DNA of 32,670 nucleotides, taken from NCBI GenBank assembly GCA_025062195.1, contig JANXAS010000037.1, positions 1 to 32,670 of the forward strand, read 5' to 3'. The stretch comes from Armatimonadota bacterium. GTDB taxonomy: Bacteria; Armatimonadota; Fervidibacteria; Fervidibacterales; Thermosaccharophagaceae. Under the pieces are notes generated by a model. It was not told the origin of the DNA. It saw nothing but the letters and a program-made list of their open reading frames with translations, and did not search any database. The position numbers were made by a program, and so were the translations under genes. Positions 10,841-30,061 of the stretch are shown in pieces; position 1 is the stretch's first letter, and each line of letters begins with the position of its first letter.

Positions 10841-12043
10841 TCATTCATAGATATGTGTAACGACGCCAGCTCCAACTGTCTTTCCACCCTCTCGTATGGC
10901 GAAGCGCAATCCCTCTTCAATAGCCACAGGGTAAATGAGCTCAACATCAAATTCGGCGTTGTCACCCGGCATGACCATCTCAACGCCTTCTGGCAGGAAA
11001 ATTGTGCCAGTGACATCGGTTGTGCGGAAGTAAAACTGTGGACGATAACCAGTGTGGAATGGCGTGTGTCTTCCACCCTCTTCACGGCTAAGGACATAGA
11101 CTTGTGCTCTGAACTTTGTATGAGGCTTTATTGAGCCAACTGCTGCAACGACATGCCCGCGCCTTATTGCCTCCTTCTCAACTCCACGCAACAGCAATCC
11201 AACATTGTCACCCGGTATTGCTTGGTCAAGCTGCTTACGGAACATTTCAATGCTTGTGCAAACAGTCCGAAGCGGCTCATAGCTGAAGCCAACCACTTCA
11301 ACTTCATCTCCGGGACGCAATACACCCCTTTCAACTCGCCCTGTTGCTACAGTTCCGCGCCCGGAGATGCTAAAAACATCTTCAACCGGCATTAGGAACG
11401 GCATGTCAGCTGGGCGAACTGGCTGCGGAATGTATTCATCAACAGCGTTCATAAGCTTCCATATTGCCCCACACCACTCGCAATCTTCATTGCCACAGCC
11501 GCATTCAAGCACCTTCAATGCGCTTCCGGCAATGACCGGCACCTTATCTCCGGGGAAGCCATACTTGGCCAAAAGCTCTCGCACCTCAAGCTCAACGAGC
11601 TCAATCAACTCTGGGTCTGGCATCTGGTCTGTCTTGTTTAGGAAGACGACGATGTATGGCACACCAACCTGCCTTGCAAGCAGGACATGTTCTCTTGTTT
11701 GTGGCATCGGACCATCAGCAGCGCTGACTACCAATATTGCTCCATCCATTTGAGCTGCCCCTGTAATCATGTTTTTGATGTAGTCGGCATGCCCGGGGCA
11801 GTCAATATGCGCGTAGTGACGCTTCTCCGTCTCAAACTCAATGTGAGCTATTTGTATGGTTAACCCGCGAGCCTTCTCCTCGGGCGCCTTGTCTATCTCC
11901 TCATACTTTACGAAACGAGCCAAGCCGCGCTTTGAAAGAACAAGCGTTATAGCAGATGTAAGGGTTGTCTTGCCATGGTCAACATGCCCAATGGTGCCTA
12001 TGTTGACATGGGGCTTTACACGCTCAAACTTCGGACGAGCCAT
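10841..12043 (-). CDS. tuf: Translation elongation factor Tu
   Basis: GTPase that delivers aminoacyl-tRNA to the ribosome. All G motifs are readable: GHVDHGKT (19-26), RGLTI (59-63, usually RGITI), DCPGH (81-85), NKTD (136-139, usually NKxD) and GSAL (173-176). Domains 2 and 3 are complete, ending [10 protein letters not shown]; 400 residues is normal. An insert-like stretch at 181-191, [11 protein letters not shown], has four Cys and may bind zinc. The ATG at 12041-12043 follows a GGGGGAT box. A consensus promoter lies 65 nt upstream and a strong terminator downstream, so it is a single-gene transcript, apart from the usual str operon partners (rpsL, rpsG, fusA). Confidence 0.98.
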
Positions 12044-12580: not shown

Positions 12581-12656
12581 TGGCTCCGCGGGCAGGACTC
12601 GAACCTGCAACCTACGGGTTAACAGCCCGCCGCTCTGCCAGTTGAGCTACCGCGGA
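12581..12656 (-). tRNA. tRNA-Asn (anticodon GTT)
   Basis: The cloverleaf folds by eye. The acceptor TCCGCGG pairs with CCGCGGA over 7 bp; the D-arm contains TAGCTCAACTGGCAGAGC; the anticodon stem-loop GCGGG-CTGTTAA-CCCGT gives GTT; and the T-arm contains GCAGGTTCGAGTCCTGC. The discriminator G and the CCA end are encoded. It lies 85 nt downstream of the 5S rRNA gene on the same strand. Confidence 0.97.
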
Positions 12657-12741
12657 GCCTCATTATCACTTCCAATCCGAATATTCAGTATAGCGCGTTG
12701 ATAGCCTCTTAAGCGCCACACTCACACAAATGGCGGCGGAG

Positions 12742-12859
<118 letters not shown>

Positions 12860-17065: not shown

Positions 17066-17175
17066 ATGGCGCAAAGGACTGTAAGCATTTGACATATAAA
17101 TTTTCCATTGCGCTGTGCAAGGCAACATTAATGCGTGTTAGTTTCAAATCAAAACTAAGGGAGGTTGATGGGTGA
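17062..17175 (+). CDS. Possible 37-residue leader peptide
   Basis: The ATG at 17062 is preceded by AAAGGTGGTG and opens a frame of 37 codons ([20 protein letters not shown] at its start). Its TGA stop overlaps the ATG at 17175 of the DUF1559 gene, so translation could be coupled. The equivalent position before the second DUF1559 gene has the same ribosome-binding block but a frame of only 7 codons, so the peptide itself is not conserved. Low confidence that it is translated for function. Confidence 0.3.
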
Positions 17176-17999
17176 TGCACAACAAGAGAGCGTCGATTTC
17201 AAACAGACGCAGTGTAATTGGTTTTACGCTGATAGAGCTGCTGGTGGTGATTGCCATAATCGCCATCTTGGCGGCGATACTGTTTCCGGTGTTTGCAAGG
17301 GCAAGAGAAAAGGCTCGCCGCTCAACTTGCCTTAACAATCTTAAACAAATTGGGAATGCACTGATGATGTATGTGCAAGACTATGATGAGACTTGGGTTG
17401 TTGCGTTCGCCGAAGCAGACCCAAGCTATTTTAACTCCGCTTGCCTCCACAACAGGGATGTCTATGTTTCTGTGGTTGGTGGACCTGCTCACAACGATCC
17501 ACCGGGTGACTGCACAAAGTTTCTACCATGGCTGTTGCAACCTTATATAAAGAGCTTTGGGCTTTTTATATGCCCATCGCTGCTTAACATTCCCAGATAT
17601 GAAGACAGCAGGGGATGGGACAATGTAGTTGGTTCTTCCAGCGTTCGCAGAAGCAATGGGGGCTCTTACGCTTGGTTCTGCATGCACTATCGGACAGATG
17701 TCTCTGACTTGATTAGCTTTATGGCAACTGCAAGAGGAATAAGCACCGCTGTGGCGCTTCGCGACACAAATGTTTGTGGCAGACATCTCGCAGCTGCTCG
17801 AAACCCAGCAATGAAACCGGTGGCATTTTGCAACTCATTAGTTGCTCATGCAGCAACAACGGAATCCCGGGTATATCCACCACCCTACGGCACTGCTCAG
17901 GATGCAGGTTGTGTCATAGCCCTATTTGCTGACGGTCATGCGAAGGTGATGATGGGAGACTGGTCCAGAATTCTCAGCTGGGGGTTGGAAAGTTACTGA
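17172..17999 (+). CDS. DUF1559 pseudopilin-like protein (prepilin N-methylation signal)
   Basis: Exported pilin-like protein of about 275 residues. The N-terminal prepilin motif is [20 protein letters not shown]: cleavage after Gly by prepilin peptidase, Phe methylation, Glu at +5 and a long hydrophobic helix. The following [20 protein letters not shown] is the standard DUF1559 continuation. The C-terminus has [13 protein letters not shown], the end of the H-X9-DG motif, but the expected His is replaced (Asp in the [12 protein letters not shown] context). The start is GTG 17172 (GGGAGG 7 nt upstream) or ATG 17175. Many paralogues are typical in Planctomycetota and Armatimonadota. The role in the surface or a secretion filament is unknown. 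Confidence 0.9.
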
Positions 18000-18458: not shown

Positions 18459-19217
18459 GTGCATAGCAATGCAAGGGGGCAAAAAGCGATTGGTTTCACA
18501 TTGATAGAGTTGCTGGTGGTGATTGCCATAATCGCCATCTTGGCAGCGATACTGTTTCCGGTGTTTGCAAGGGCAAGGGAAAAGGCAAGGCAAACTTCGT
18601 GCTTAAATAATTGCCGTCAGATAGGGCTTGCAATCGCTCAATATCGCCAGGACTATGATGGCTTTATGCCAATTGATGCAAATCCATATGACGACTCCAC
18701 CTTAAGAGCTACAAGGTGCCTTGAAGAATGGCATTACTTAATCCTACCCTACATGCGCAACACACAACTTTTCATATGCCCGTCTGATTCCGGTGCCCGC
18801 TCTCGTGACCCAGATCGTGAGATGGCTGGGAGTGTCCCGCCACCAAACCCATGCTATCCACCAAGATGGTTCAGTTATGCTATTCACACGGGCATATGCT
18901 GTATTTCTGGGTGCAGTGGAGTTGTGGGCGCTCATGAAGCTTATGTGCGCTTCCCATCAGACTTGGTCATGGTATTGGAATCAAACGAAGCCAGAGTTGA
19001 GGGGAACTGCGACCTACCGCTCGCAAACGAAGATTCATGTGATGCGCCCTCTGGAGGATGCGGTAGCCCACCATGCACAGGGCGCAATGTGGATGCCGTT
19101 GATTTTCCATTCAAGCGCCACATGGATGGCTTTGTAGCTATCTTCTTTGACGGGCACGCAAAATGGGTGAAGTATCCGATCCCGGGAAACCAAATAAGCC
19201 TGCGATTCTGCCGCTAA
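18459..19217 (+). CDS. DUF1559 pseudopilin-like protein with H-X9-DG motif
   Basis: Exported pilin-like protein of 252 residues, paralogous to the gene at 17172. The prepilin signal [20 protein letters not shown] is at about residues 13-32, followed by [19 protein letters not shown]. The C-terminal H-X9-DG motif is intact: [17 protein letters not shown]. The start is GTG 18459 with AAAGGAGG 9 nt upstream; no better start exists. Several Cys in the second half ([23 protein letters not shown]) may form disulfides outside the membrane. It lies in tandem with its own promoter-leader module, so it is probably expressed independently of the first gene. Function unknown. Confidence 0.9.
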
Positions 19218-19336: not shown

Positions 19337-20962
19337 TCAATATTGAGTGGGTTGAATGCGCATACCACCGTCAACCAAAGCTGTTACAGGTGTAAACTCT
19401 GCCGATGTCATCACCTCAACCCTGTTCTTGCCAGCAGCTTTTGCTCTGAGAAGAGCCTCATCCGCAGCTCGCACTAAGTCATGAGGTTCAAAAACAGTTG
19501 GACCAAGTGCAGCGATACCCGCGCTGATTGTAACTTTGTGTTCAACCGGCGGGTTGCCAAACGAAAAGGTTAATTGCTCTACCAACTTCCTTATTCGCTC
19601 GGCAGCAACCTTAGCACCAGTCAAAGGTGTATGTGGCAAGATGACAGCAAACTCTTCACCACCATAGCGCGCCGGGATGTCTGAGTCCCTCAAGTTCTTC
19701 CGAAGGACCTCCCCAACCTTCGCCAGAATCTCATCCCCAGCAGCATGCCCAAAACGGTCATTGCATTGCTTGAAGTTATCAAGGTCAAACATGATTAGGC
19801 TAAGCGGGTAGCTATATCTCAAAGCTCTGTTATACTCGCGCTGCAGCATCAAGTCAAAGTAACGCCTGTTATACACGCCTGTCAGTTGGTCAGTCTGAGC
19901 CATCTGCTGTAGTTCCTGAAGCAAGCGTGTATTCTCAATGGCAGATGCTATGTGAGCTGCAATGAGTGACATCAACCTCAAATCCTCATGCGTGAATGGG
20001 TCTCTACTCCTTGAGCCATACACTGCGAGCACTCCGACAATGTTTCCACCGGCTCTCACTGGCACTGCCATAAATGTATGATATGCCGAAGCCTGCTGAG
20101 TTAAGTCATCGGATGCCATGCCCGGTGTGCCCACTGCAAGCTCTCCAAACAGCAATGGCGCTCCGGTTTGAAACACATGACCAACAACACCTTGCCCCGC
20201 TGATATGCTCAGCGGAAACTCATCTGCTGCATCCGACGGTTGGAAATGGCGCAGCTCAAGCAGCTTTGATGTCGGGCTGTAAATGTAAAGCAGCGTGTGA
20301 GAGGCTTCAAGCTGCACATGCGCTGTATCAACCGCCATCTGTAATGCAGCGCCAAGCCTCTCGGGAAACAGCAGTTCTCCGCCAAGCTGATAAAGCTCTT
20401 CAATACGCCTGAACAACTCATCAATAGCACGAACGCGATGTAAGAATGGCGTCATAAAAACAGTCCCGAAGGCTGAAAAGAAGAAGAGCGACACCCATGC
20501 ACCGTAGATTGGAATGAGCAACTGGTTGGCAAGGAAGTAACGAGCTACCCATAGCATGATGGATGCGAAGCCTGTGACCATCAACCCCCATGCGAGTTTA
20601 AACGATGCGCATGTGTTGACTATCGGGAGCAAGTAGAACGCCGTCAAAATCTCAACATTGGGTGTTGGCACCGAGACTGCTGCAGTTACAGCGAGAAGGT
20701 CAATTGCTGGCACACCAACGATTACAATCCTGTGCCAGCGCCTATATCGCCTTGGGCTGGCAGTGAGTAGCACGATGGCAAGGTTGTATAACGCAAAGCA
20801 CATGACAGCACCGGTAAGCAAGTTTGGTTCAACAGCACCGGTCAAAGTGAACACCGCTAAGCCAAGTCCAATCCAACGGGCATGCGTTGACCAAAGCATC
20901 ACCCTGTATGACCTTTCAAGCACACCTATAACCTGCTCAAGTTGCTTTGAGGCAAGTCCCAC
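19337..20962 (-). CDS. Membrane-bound GAF-GGDEF diguanylate cyclase
   Basis: Makes cyclic di-GMP from two GTP. About 541 residues. Six or so N-terminal membrane helices (about 28-180) form a sensor region of no named family. A GAF domain follows (about 200-350) and then a GGDEF domain with DQLTGVYNRRYFD at its start and the active site RYGGEEF (434-438). RDSD lies five residues before it and is a complete RxxD inhibitory site, so product feedback is likely. The GTG at 20960-20962 follows GAGGTG by 6 nt; a GTG three codons earlier is possible. Convergent with the pseudopilin genes. The signal sensed is unknown. Confidence 0.92.
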   Translation of the reverse strand: MGLASKQLEQVIGVLERSYRVMLWSTHARWIGLGLAVFTLTGAVEPNLLTGAVMCFALYNLAIVLLTASPRRYRRWHRIVIVGVPAIDLLAVTAAVSVPTPNVEILTAFYLLPIVNTCASFKLAWGLMVTGFASIMLWVARYFLANQLLIPIYGAWVSLFFFSAFGTVFMTPFLHRVRAIDELFRRIEELYQLGGELLFPERLGAALQMAVDTAHVQLEASHTLLYIYSPTSKLLELRHFQPSDAADEFPLSISAGQGVVGHVFQTGAPLLFGELAVGTPGMASDDLTQQASAYHTFMAVPVRAGGNIVGVLAVYGSRSRDPFTHEDLRLMSLIAAHIASAIENTRLLQELQQMAQTDQLTGVYNRRYFDLMLQREYNRALRYSYPLSLIMFDLDNFKQCNDRFGHAAGDEILAKVGEVLRKNLRDSDIPARYGGEEFAVILPHTPLTGAKVAAERIRKLVEQLTFSFGNPPVEHKVTISAGIAALGPTVFEPHDLVRAADEALLRAKAAGKNRVEVMTSAEFTPVTALVDGGMRIQPTQY

Positions 20963-21256
20963 TAACTTCACCTCTGCGCTTTGTTATTTCAGTAAACGCT
21001 TGACTGAAAGCCGGGTGCGCCTCACATTCAATTTTGCCATCCATACACTAAGCACCACGAAAAGCGCAGCAAAGCTTTTTCAGGCGTCACAGATGAAGCA
21101 ACAGCCTTTCAAATTGCAGCTTTTATAACAAGCCATCGTAAAAGGACACCTGCTTTGCATATCCATCTCATAAATCGGCAAACTCGTTTGTGCACTTTAA
21201 TCATTCGTTCTTTGCCCAAAAGTTTGTTTGTTCGTAGTGAGGCACGAATAAGCTTT

Positions 21257-26485: not shown

Positions 26486-29479
26486 CTACACTTCCACAAA
26501 GCCGCTCACAATTGAAGGGATAATGCTCTCTACAGGGTGCTTCATAACCATGCTGATGAACGCCTTCACAATTTCAGCATCAAGCTGCTTGCCAGCTTGC
26601 TCCTTGAGTTGCGCCAGTGCCTCGTCATGATTAAATGCCGGTCTATGTGGGCGTGGACACACCAATGCATCGTAAACATCGCAAACAGCTATGACCATAG
26701 CCAGCCTCGGTATTTGCCCGCCAACAAGCCTGTCGGGATAGCCGCTTCCATCAAGCCTCTCAGCATGATGCCTGATGGCTGGTGCAAACTCGCTCAATTG
26801 CGGTATGAGCTTTATGAACTGCTCGGAGTAAATTGGGAACCGTTCAAGCAATTGCCTCTCAGCCTTAGTGAGCTTACCCTGCTTATTGAGGACGGTATCT
26901 GGGACAGTTATCAAGCCTATTTCATGCCCGAGGACAGCCATGCTGAAGCGTTGCGCATACGAAGCATCGTATCCAAGCTCAATAAGCAACTGTTTGCAGA
27001 GCCGCGAGACCCTTGCAGCATGCCCGCGCCTGCCGATGAGGCGTTGCTCATTCTGTGAAACAATCGTCGTCACAACCTTCTCAAGCTGTTCCTGACCGGA
27101 GACGGCGTAGAGCTTTGAATTGTCAATGGCAATCGCCGCATAGCTTGCGAGTGCAAAGGCGAGTTTCAAATCTTCCTCGTCAAACATCTTTTCGGTTGAA
27201 AGGCTGTTAATGCATAAAACTCCAAGAACCTTCCCACGGGCTTGCAGCGGAACAGCTATTGACGAGACGATCTGTTCGCGGTGAAGCAAACCCTTTATGT
27301 CTGGGTCAACCCTTGTAGGGGTGACAATTATAGCCCTTCCCTCCTTTGCGACCTTCCCAGCGATGCCCTCGCCGAGCTTCAAACTTGTTGAAGCCACAAT
27401 ATCTTCATCAAGCCCACGATGTGTCGCTATACGCAAAGTGCCTGTGGCTTCATCAAGCAGCATGATCGAACCACTGTCAGCACCAATTAAGGTTATTGCG
27501 GCATTCATCACCATATTGAGGATGACATTGATGTCAACCTCTGAGGTGACAGCAAGCCCAACCTTGTATAGCCTGTCAAGCTGTTGAAGCCTCTTATCCA
27601 CTTCCTCAAAGAGGCGCTCATGCATTGGTTCAATGCCGCTGCCACAGTATGGACATACATCCCAATCAACGCTCAGCTTGCGCTCGCATCTTGAACACAC
27701 ATTCATAAGCTGTAAATGGCACTTAGGGCAGTAAATGAAATCCCTCTCAAGAATCGGATAGCCACAACGCTTGCACCTTCTCTTCTCCTCCTCCGGGACT
27801 GCCAATACGGCAAATACCTCTTCAACCGTCGTCCTACCTTCAGCGAGCAACCTGAAACAGCTTTCACGCAGAGTCATCATGCCCTCACTCACTGCGGCAG
27901 ATTCAATTTCCCCCTCCGGTGCATCACGCATTATTAGCGTTCGTATGGTTGAAGTAACAGGCAGTATCTCAAACAGGGCAGTCCTTCCATAGTATCCGGT
28001 CATGTCACAATACGCGCACCCCTGCCCGCGCATGAAATTGAACTTGCTCGCTTCGGCAAGCGTCAATCCAAGCGCTTTCAGTTCCGCATCGTGTGGAGTA
28101 TACGGCTGTGAACAGCGCGGGCAGTTCAACCTGACAAGGCGCTGTGAAACAACACCGAGGAGCGAAGAGGCAAGCAAGAATGCCTGAACACCCAAATCCC
28201 TCATCCTCGGGATGGCTGCTGCAGCGGTGTTTGCGTGAAGTGTTGAGAGAACTAAATGACCAGTCATGGCAGCCCTAATAGCGAGTTCGGCTGTCTCGGT
28301 ATCCCTTATTTCGCCAACAAGGATTATATCCGGATCCTGCCTAAGCACATTCCTCAATGCCGATGCAAATGTCAAGCCTATTTCTGGGTGCATTTGGATT
28401 TGAGATATGCCGGGTATCTCCTGCTCAACTGGCTCCTCAAGGGTGACGATGTTTTTTCTGCCATCGTTCAACCAAATGACGCTCGCATACAGCGTTGTTG
28501 TCTTCCCGCTGCCTGTCGGTCCGACGACAAGGATGATGCCATGAGGGTGACGAAGGAGATTCAAGTAAACATTAAGCTGCTGCTGTGTCATGCCCAGCAA
28601 CTCAAGAGAAAACAGCTCCTCTTCTGGGCGAAGGAAACGCAAGACAGCCTTCTCACCATGCACTGTCGGCGATGTCGCCACACGCACATGATGCTGCCTC
28701 TCTTTCACCCTGAACCTAAAATGCCCATCCTGCGGCAGGCGCCTCTCGGCAACATTCATTTGTGAAAGGACTTTTATCCGCCCGATTAGCGATGCCTCCA
28801 CGCCTTTAGGTAGCTCTGCCACTGTATGCAACACACCATCAATGCGCATCCTGACGAGCACTTTATCCCTCTGAGGCTCAATGTGAATATCACTCGCATG
28901 TCTCTCAACTGCTCTCAAGAGCAAGTTATTAAGAAGTCTGACTGTAGGGGCTTCCCTTGCTTCCTTCGTAACATCCACAACCGGAACTTCAGCGAGTGTT
29001 TCAAGATCCTCTGTCACTGCTGTTGCTATCTCGCTGCTCAATGGATAGTAGCGTGAGATGAGCTGAGATAGAACAGCATATGAAACCACAACAGGTTCAA
29101 CATCCATCCCTGTAGCTGAGCGCACATCATCTATGGCGACGATGTTCCCTGGGTCTGCCATCGCCAAAACGAGCTTATTGCCGCGCCTGCTTATCGGCAT
29201 GACGAGATGCTTCCTTGCTATCTCAGGTGTGAGCAACTTTACAGCTTCAACATCAATTGGAAACTTCGCAAGGTCAACCTTGCGCACGCCGTAGTAGCGG
29301 CTCAAGATATCAAGGATGACCTCCTCATCCTTAATAAACCCAAGCTCGTAAAGGACTGTCCCAAGCGGACGGTTTGAAATCCTTTGCTCCTCAAGAGCTA
29401 TCTCAAGCTGCTCAGGCGTTATGACCCTCCCATCAACAAGCAGCTCACCGAGCCTCGGTTTAACTTTTGGAGCGCTCAC
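26486..29479 (-). CDS. PilB/GspE ATPase fused to zinc ribbons, GAF and HD-GYP domain
   Basis: A 997-residue cytoplasmic protein. Residues 5-145: MshEN domain (RLGELLVDGRVITPEQLEIA), a c-di-GMP-binding type. Residues 165-560: assembly ATPase with Walker A GPTGSGKTT (320-328), DPDIILVGEIRD (382-393), GHLVLSTLHAN and the zinc motif CPRC...CAYC. Residues 569-612: four CxxC pairs forming a double zinc ribbon. Residues 640-790: GAF. Residues 815-985: HD-GYP with HHAERLDGSGYP (904-915) and VCDVYDAL; the HD pair reads HE (852-853) in GHEIGLI, so phosphodiesterase activity is uncertain. Start GTG 29479, preceded by GGGGTGATATAG. PilB proteins normally end near residue 560, so the rest is a large fusion. 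Confidence 0.93.
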   Translation of the reverse strand: MSAPKVKPRLGELLVDGRVITPEQLEIALEEQRISNRPLGTVLYELGFIKDEEVILDILSRYYGVRKVDLAKFPIDVEAVKLLTPEIARKHLVMPISRRGNKLVLAMADPGNIVAIDDVRSATGMDVEPVVVSYAVLSQLISRYYPLSSEIATAVTEDLETLAEVPVVDVTKEAREAPTVRLLNNLLLRAVERHASDIHIEPQRDKVLVRMRIDGVLHTVAELPKGVEASLIGRIKVLSQMNVAERRLPQDGHFRFRVKERQHHVRVATSPTVHGEKAVLRFLRPEEELFSLELLGMTQQQLNVYLNLLRHPHGIILVVGPTGSGKTTTLYASVIWLNDGRKNIVTLEEPVEQEIPGISQIQMHPEIGLTFASALRNVLRQDPDIILVGEIRDTETAELAIRAAMTGHLVLSTLHANTAAAAIPRMRDLGVQAFLLASSLLGVVSQRLVRLNCPRCSQPYTPHDAELKALGLTLAEASKFNFMRGQGCAYCDMTGYYGRTALFEILPVTSTIRTLIMRDAPEGEIESAAVSEGMMTLRESCFRLLAEGRTTVEEVFAVLAVPEEEKRRCKRCGYPILERDFIYCPKCHLQLMNVCSRCERKLSVDWDVCPYCGSGIEPMHERLFEEVDKRLQQLDRLYKVGLAVTSEVDINVILNMVMNAAITLIGADSGSIMLLDEATGTLRIATHRGLDEDIVASTSLKLGEGIAGKVAKEGRAIIVTPTRVDPDIKGLLHREQIVSSIAVPLQARGKVLGVLCINSLSTEKMFDEEDLKLAFALASYAAIAIDNSKLYAVSGQEQLEKVVTTIVSQNEQRLIGRRGHAARVSRLCKQLLIELGYDASYAQRFSMAVLGHEIGLITVPDTVLNKQGKLTKAERQLLERFPIYSEQFIKLIPQLSEFAPAIRHHAERLDGSGYPDRLVGGQIPRLAMVIAVCDVYDALVCPRPHRPAFNHDEALAQLKEQAGKQLDAEIVKAFISMVMKHPVESIIPSIVSGFVEV

Positions 29480-30061
29480 CTATATCACCCCTTCACACAC
29501 GAACGCCAATTTCAGATTGAAAATATCTGCGCCTTTACGCCCCTGAATGGAAGCGAACCAATACTATTTTCAAACTTCACATCTGGTTTAATCCCCCATG
29601 ATATTAAGGGCGGGTGAAAGCACTTTGACAAAAGTTTTCATGGGCATGGCTCAAAGGTGTTTGTGGCAAGGCTCATAACGAAGTAGGGTGCCGCAAAGGA
29701 ATTAAAGATATCACTCACCTACTCTTCGCGGCGGATTATGAACCATGCCTTCCAGACGCCCCTGCCACATTTTCAGCCCTCGGGTTTTAGACCGCAACCG
29801 ACAGCATTGCTTTCAGCGTGCTCAAAAGCGAGTTTAGTAGATTATAATTCACAAGCCGAATTTCGGTGACTTTAGAGAGCCACCTTCCCATTCATTCTAA
29901 CTTTTTAACTCAACAGTCACTCACCCATTGACTCAATCCAGTGTCGTGAGCAAGGGAAGGCTAATCGCAAAACTTAGCGAGCCAAATTATTTGACGGTTC
30001 GCCAAATTGACCGTTGTTCACCCTTAACTTTTAACTGCTATCTGCAAAGGTCGCATAACCA
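29480..30061. other. Spacer without a recognised gene
   Basis: 582 bp between the PilB-like fusion and the transglutaminase-like gene, both on the minus strand. No supported frame on either strand. A minus-strand TTGTCA near 29625 with TAATAT 19 nt later is a weak promoter candidate for the fusion gene. Near 29968-30012 a short block (CCAAATT..TTGACGGTT) is partly repeated. No terminator hairpin was found. Confidence 0.45.

Follow-up and report, generated by a model that had tools for sequence, protein, structure and literature searches.

The locus raises the question of whether a pilus or secretion motor and a GAF/HD-GYP module are truly carried on a single chain and, if so, whether that chain could bind and modulate cyclic di-GMP (c-di-GMP) at the motor itself, as was proposed in an earlier note on this DNA. 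The window referred to throughout is the whole 32,670-nucleotide stretch that was analysed, contig JANXAS010000037.1 of an Armatimonadota draft genome.

The fused gene and its orthologue

The gene is an open frame of 997 codons on the reverse strand, beginning with a GTG at 29479 and ending with a stop at 26486-26488, with no internal stops (Table 1). Searches with Pfam and NCBIfam profiles confirmed that MshEN, PilB/GspE ATPase, zinc ribbon, GAF and HD-GYP domains are present on this one uninterrupted frame, and the Pfam matches for MshEN, T2SSE, DZR, GAF_2 and HD_5 each exceed the curated cut-off. The NCBIfam model c-di-GMP_motif (NF053729) matches residues 9-54 (57 bits, cut-off 38), which is the MshEN_N half and lies outside the reach of the Pfam MshEN model. 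The four CxxC pairs noticed earlier (C569/C572, C584/C587, C595/C598 and C609/C612) proved to be the eight cysteines of the double zinc ribbon, and the further tetracysteine inside the ATPase brings the pairs in the whole chain to six.

Table 1. Features of the fused gene in window coordinates
Feature	Coordinates	Strand	Basis
Whole fused gene, 997 aa: MshEN - T2SSE ATPase - double zinc ribbon - GAF - predicted pseudo-HD-GYP	26486-29479	-	Open frame; full-length orthologue in SKYB58
Shine-Dalgarno-like AAGGGG, 8 nt upstream of GTG	29488-29493	-	Sequence
MshEN motif I, residues 9-32, RLGELLVDGRVITPEQLEIALEEQ; 10/11 consensus positions, Gly18 to Arg	29384-29455	-	Consensus of PMC5013675
MshEN motif II, residues 38-61, PLGTVLYELGFIKDEEVILDILSR; 5/11 consensus positions, changes including Arg38 to Pro, Leu54 to Val, Leu58 to Ile, Gln61 to Arg	29297-29368	-	Consensus comparison
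MshEN (PF05157), residues 63-148, 85 bits	29036-29293	-	Pfam
T2SSE ATPase (PF00437), residues 174-556, 415 bits; with Walker A, GEIRD and His box	27812-28960	-	Pfam
Walker A GPTGSGKT, residues 320-327	28499-28522	-	Sequence
ATPase zinc tetracysteine, C453/C456-C488/C491	28007-28123	-	Sequence; invariant in both orthologues
Double zinc ribbon (DZR, PF12773), residues 569-613, 36 bits; 8/8 Cys also in orthologue	27641-27775	-	Pfam
GAF domain (GAF_2), residues 648-786, 78 bits	27122-27538	-	Pfam
HD-GYP (HD_5, PF13487), residues 802-970, 115 bits; catalytic/metal residues lost, nucleotide-contact residues retained	26570-27076	-	Pfam; active-site alignment

Such a frame could in principle have been produced by an assembly or sequencing error joining a pilB gene to a GAF-HD-GYP gene near residue 565, and the window does come from a draft of 170 contigs. 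This explanation is almost certainly wrong, because a full-length orthologue with the identical, nearly gap-free junction is present in an independent genome, Armatimonadetes MAG SKYB58 (G004 in our set; JANXCD010000010.1, contig C11). It is a 992-aa frame of the same architecture, 77% identical over 978 aa, and was the one other full-length match among the 61 relatives searched. The surroundings are unrelated: the window locus is flanked by sugar transport, DUF2961 and transglutaminase genes and the SKYB58 locus by a mur-ddl-ftsA cluster and a GH32 gene, with no neighbour in common.

The fusion is present in 2 of the 291 genomes of the phylum, namely these two. They belong to an order of five genomes, and it is absent from two other members with 90-96% estimated completeness. 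Beyond the phylum, genome contigs were scanned once with zinc-ribbon patterns, a search that reaches close relatives only; among the best 5000 matches in plasmid records, none covers 80% of the fusion protein. No PilB-GAF-HD-GYP fusion was found in the literature searched; the main text of Wang et al. 2016 mentions MshEN together with HD-GYP and gives no details. Other long PilB frames of the phylum (in G019, G028, G064, G018, G020, G039, G043 and G222) were inspected by eye as candidate parallel fusions and none carries GAF or HD-GYP, their length being explained by frame overruns, N-terminal low-complexity extensions or, in G020, another C-terminal extension.

Identity between the two orthologues is 89% for MshEN_C, 82% for the ATPase, 66% for the zinc ribbons, 72% for GAF and 71% for HD-GYP. 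Across the folded domains dN is 0.06-0.19 and dS, where estimable, 1.1-2.1 and so near saturation (NG86), with values of 0.17 and 2.1 for HD-GYP. All domains are under purifying selection, and the low dN relative to dS indicates that the C-terminal module is maintained and is not decaying. For the same pair of genomes the regular PilB is 62%, PilC 65% and PilT 73-76% identical; as the fusion exceeds the first two and is close to the third, it may be under unusual constraint or may have been transferred horizontally. The fusion is a real, rare and conserved new combination of known domains. A separate observation concerns the regular pilB-pilT-pilC cluster on contig C11 of G000, in which pilT (L079:9077-10194) is split over two frames by a frameshift or sequencing error; in relatives it is one frame of about 400-430 aa.

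Motor core and MshEN domain

PilB structures of the Geobacter type (5zfr, 6olj, 5tsg) match residues 4-558 from end to end (E about 1e-138), and the T2SSE match is complete (profile positions 3-369 of 370). Walker A, the GEIRD Walker B, the His box, the tetracysteine zinc site and MshEN_C are all retained, as in PilB, MshE and PilF (PF00437 plus PF05157). Together with the uninterrupted frame, the domain matches and the orthologue, this supports the reading of the chain as a PilB/GspE-family, pilus/secretion-type motor joined to a GAF/HD-GYP module, as had been claimed.

The fusion differs from those motors in the additional segment of about 430 residues (DZR, GAF and pseudo-HD-GYP), in the absence of an adjacent pilC, and in falling below the equivalog cut-offs for PilB (TIGR02538, 575 of 676 bits) and GspE (TIGR02533, 542 of 630). 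Deviations at otherwise conserved positions are confined to V319, E349, Q353, A416 and two Ile-to-Val changes. Among 68 related ATPases, a set that takes in retraction-type enzymes, position 319 is Thr in all 68, position 353 is Tyr in all 68 and position 416 is Thr in 65, so motor function might be altered. In the ATPase tree the fusion clade is set apart by a long branch (0.95), and no PilB groups close to it.

The earlier note had taken the MshEN domain as a c-di-GMP receptor. The domain itself is clearly present (PF05157 and NF053729), but it does not carry two intact copies of the 24-residue binding motif separated by a spacer of 5 residues: the spacer is of that length and motif I lacks only one consensus position, while motif II keeps 5 of 11 (6 of 11 in SKYB58) when compared with the consensus of Wang et al. 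(PMC5013675). Of the three such domains in Thermus thermophilus PilF, GSPII-A, whose motif I is almost perfect and whose motif II reaches 45%, does not bind the messenger, and GSPII-C tolerates Pro at position one of motif II (PMC11731258), which makes weak binding by the fusion's MshEN possible. Family membership thus makes a receptor role plausible, while the individual residues make it doubtful. A gene at 19337-20971 on the reverse strand, some 5.5 kb away from that of the fused motor, encodes a GAF-GGDEF protein with GGEEF and, five residues upstream, an RxxD I-site. From these motifs its product is probably an active diguanylate cyclase, so c-di-GMP is probably made in the same cell.

The GAF/HD-GYP module

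The C-terminal half resembles PmGH, the GAF-HD-GYP phosphodiesterase of Persephonella marina (PDB 4mcw/4mdz/4me4). Chain 4mcw aligns with residues 640-976 (337 residues, E 6e-33) in the same GAF then HD-GYP order. PmGH is an active enzyme, whereas six metal or catalytic positions are altered in the fusion, in both orthologues. These were read from an alignment of PmGH with 32 HD-GYP domains of relatives, chosen from the best-scoring matches. D183 is replaced by Leu (Asp in 22/32 relatives), D222 by Glu (Asp in 28/32, Glu in none), K225 by Leu (Lys in 25/32, Leu in 5/32) and H250 by Phe (His in 30/32). E185 is Gly, which is weak evidence since this position is Tyr in 17/32 relatives. H277 is Ala in the window and Thr in SKYB58 (His in 29/32), an assignment based on the HHHERxDG form of the relatives, the pairwise 4mcw alignment placing a one-residue insertion there.

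Four of the eight metal ligands of PmGH (E185, D222, H250 and H277) are accordingly changed, in addition to D183 and K225. In PmGH, single Ala changes at D183, D222, K225, H250 or H277 essentially abolish activity (PMC4159591); even when H277 is set aside, D183, D222, K225 and H250 are still lost, each of them required for PmGH activity. Judged by these residues, phosphodiesterase catalysis by the fusion is very unlikely. The earlier suspicion of a sensor in place of an enzyme, which rested on HE for HD and Leu for Lys (here H852-E853 and L856), is thus borne out and extended by the further changes, and the idea of a chain that adjusts c-di-GMP at the motor itself finds no support, given the same six positions.

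It follows that a self-contained motor in which MshEN binds the messenger and HD-GYP degrades it is highly improbable. Both domains are present, the NCBIfam motif exceeds its cut-off and a candidate source of c-di-GMP is encoded in the window; however, the active site is lost in both orthologues and motif II resembles that of the non-binding PilF domain.

Retained in both proteins are H189, H221, H276, D305, D308, the GYP residues (G284, Y285, P286), I294, R314 and an Arg at K317, which are the residues by which PmGH contacts c-di-GMP. Because most members of the fold conserve these residues too, finding them here is compatible with ligand binding and does not prove it. An AlphaFold model of the C-terminal half built from two sequences had a pLDDT of 39 and was discarded, and the pocket is therefore argued from sequence alone. 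A tentative and rather unlikely reading is that the dead HD-GYP has become the nucleotide receptor of the motor, the MshEN site having decayed and the pseudo-phosphodiesterase having taken over control by c-di-GMP or a related dinucleotide at the C-terminus.

By analogy with RpfG, and with about the same low likelihood, the pseudo-HD-GYP may be a protein-docking site whose GYP brings in a GGDEF or PilZ partner to control the motor, fused here instead of working through adaptors. The GYP is intact although catalysis is lost, and in Xanthomonas RpfG needs its GYP for contact with GGDEF proteins; these in turn bring in PilZ and affect PilT/PilU, an influence on pilus motors by protein contacts and without catalysis (PMC3749722). 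The Xanthomonas components are separate proteins whereas here they would be covalently fused, and the retained I294, R314 and K317-type Arg are nucleotide contacts that docking alone would not need. Another non-catalytic HD-GYP with a retained fold, Bdellovibrio Bd1817, differs in lacking the Tyr of GYP and in having a di-iron centre; in the fusion GYP is intact and the metal ligands are lost.

In the HD-domain tree the fusion groups most closely with REC-GAF-HD-GYP regulators from its own order, L104/L086 and L106 (support 96/87), which also have Leu at K225 but are stand-alone, carry a receiver domain and retain D222, H250 and H277. The likely origin, as far as the tree and domain order indicate, is the addition of a regulator's GAF-HD-GYP portion to a divergent PilB paralogue, the zinc ribbon taking the place of the receiver domain. 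Degenerate active sites (QDLGL, YQVGL) were also seen in the stand-alone REC-GAF-HD-GYP regulators L006 (G000, C106), L104 (G003, C252) and L106 (G004, C261), and by their residues dead or altered HD-GYP domains recur in the order of the window genome.

Genomic setting and proposed function

Upstream of the fused gene are 582 bp of intergenic DNA, and a convergent gene lies 39 bp from its end, so it is probably transcribed alone. No riboswitch or structured RNA near the gene was matched in Rfam, and scans for sigma-70 promoters and terminators gave numbers at chance level. An apparent hairpin at 29630-29780 was rejected, as it folds no better than shuffled sequence (z -0.64) and a short dispersed repeat makes up part of the stretch. 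The short dispersed repeats of this intergenic region (29640-29790) occur also on contigs C91, C87 and C55. Elsewhere in the window, tRNA and 5S rRNA genes (12584-12858, reverse strand) adjoin an EF-Tu-like gene (10841-12043).

Neither genome has a platform protein, pilin operon or PilM/N/O beside the fused gene, which leaves the description of the motor as self-contained unproven. The forward-strand genes at 17172-17999 and 18459-19217 each encode a DUF1559 protein whose N-methylation motif resembles that of type IV pilins. DUF1559/N-methyl pseudopilin-like genes and the GAF-GGDEF gene lie 5-12 kb from the fused gene, but such genes are frequent in the phylum and their proximity is weak evidence. 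The window genome has other ATPase-platform pairs on contigs C11, C91, C81 and C82. At least two of its T2SSF platform genes have no ATPase next to them, one lying between HPPK and glycosyltransferase genes (C123) and one between creatininase and amidohydrolase genes (C137). T2SSF genes that lack a nearby ATPase gene, at L091:3417-4613 and L092:4007-5029, are candidates for partners of orphan motors. An orphan T2SSF platform or a regular pilus could be what the fused motor serves.

The orphan locus in both genomes, the long branch and the substitutions at otherwise invariant positions would also fit a signalling ATPase that is no longer a filament motor and whose ring is the output. This has a precedent in Myxococcus xanthus, where PilB has been proposed as a signalling protein in exopolysaccharide control (PMC5544727). 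We consider it unlikely here, given the retained Walker A, GEIRD, His box, tetracysteine and MshEN_C, the conservation of the ATPase between the orthologues and the presence of orphan platform genes.

The preferred reading, to which we give a probability of roughly 0.55, is of a putative PilB/GspE-family assembly motor with an acquired C-terminal regulatory module of zinc ribbon, GAF and dead HD-GYP. Such motors are hexameric traffic ATPases. The double zinc ribbon would act as a zinc-stabilised linker between the motor and the GAF/pseudo-HD-GYP pair, which would bind either a GGDEF/PilZ partner or a small ligand, c-di-GMP or some other dinucleotide being possible candidates. The signal might then pass through dimerisation and the zinc ribbon to the ATPase ring, altering its conformation, its oligomer state or its docking, and filament extension would be switched on or off. 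As the gene stands alone, the motor would act in trans, with its platform protein encoded at another locus. Against this assembly-motor reading are the substitutions at V319, Q353 and A416, the absence of adjacent pilus genes and the finding of just two orthologues.

Pilus motors are usually tuned through an N-terminal MshEN domain or through adaptors (FimX-PilZ, RpfG-GGDEF-PilZ), and degenerate EAL domains serve as receptors in FimX and LapD. FimX acts on PilB through PilZ (PMC10333796); if the receptor reading is true, the dead HD-GYP of the fusion would be the HD-GYP counterpart of these proteins, covalently attached to the motor. With a regulator fused at the end opposite MshEN and using a non-catalytic HD-GYP, the coupling between a second messenger and the ATPase ring would become directly testable on one purified protein, and it would allow one to ask whether dead HD-GYP domains serve as receptors as dead EAL domains do. 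The fusion also hints at physical partners: in related bacteria, PilB may be contacted by GAF-HD-GYP proteins that are encoded separately.
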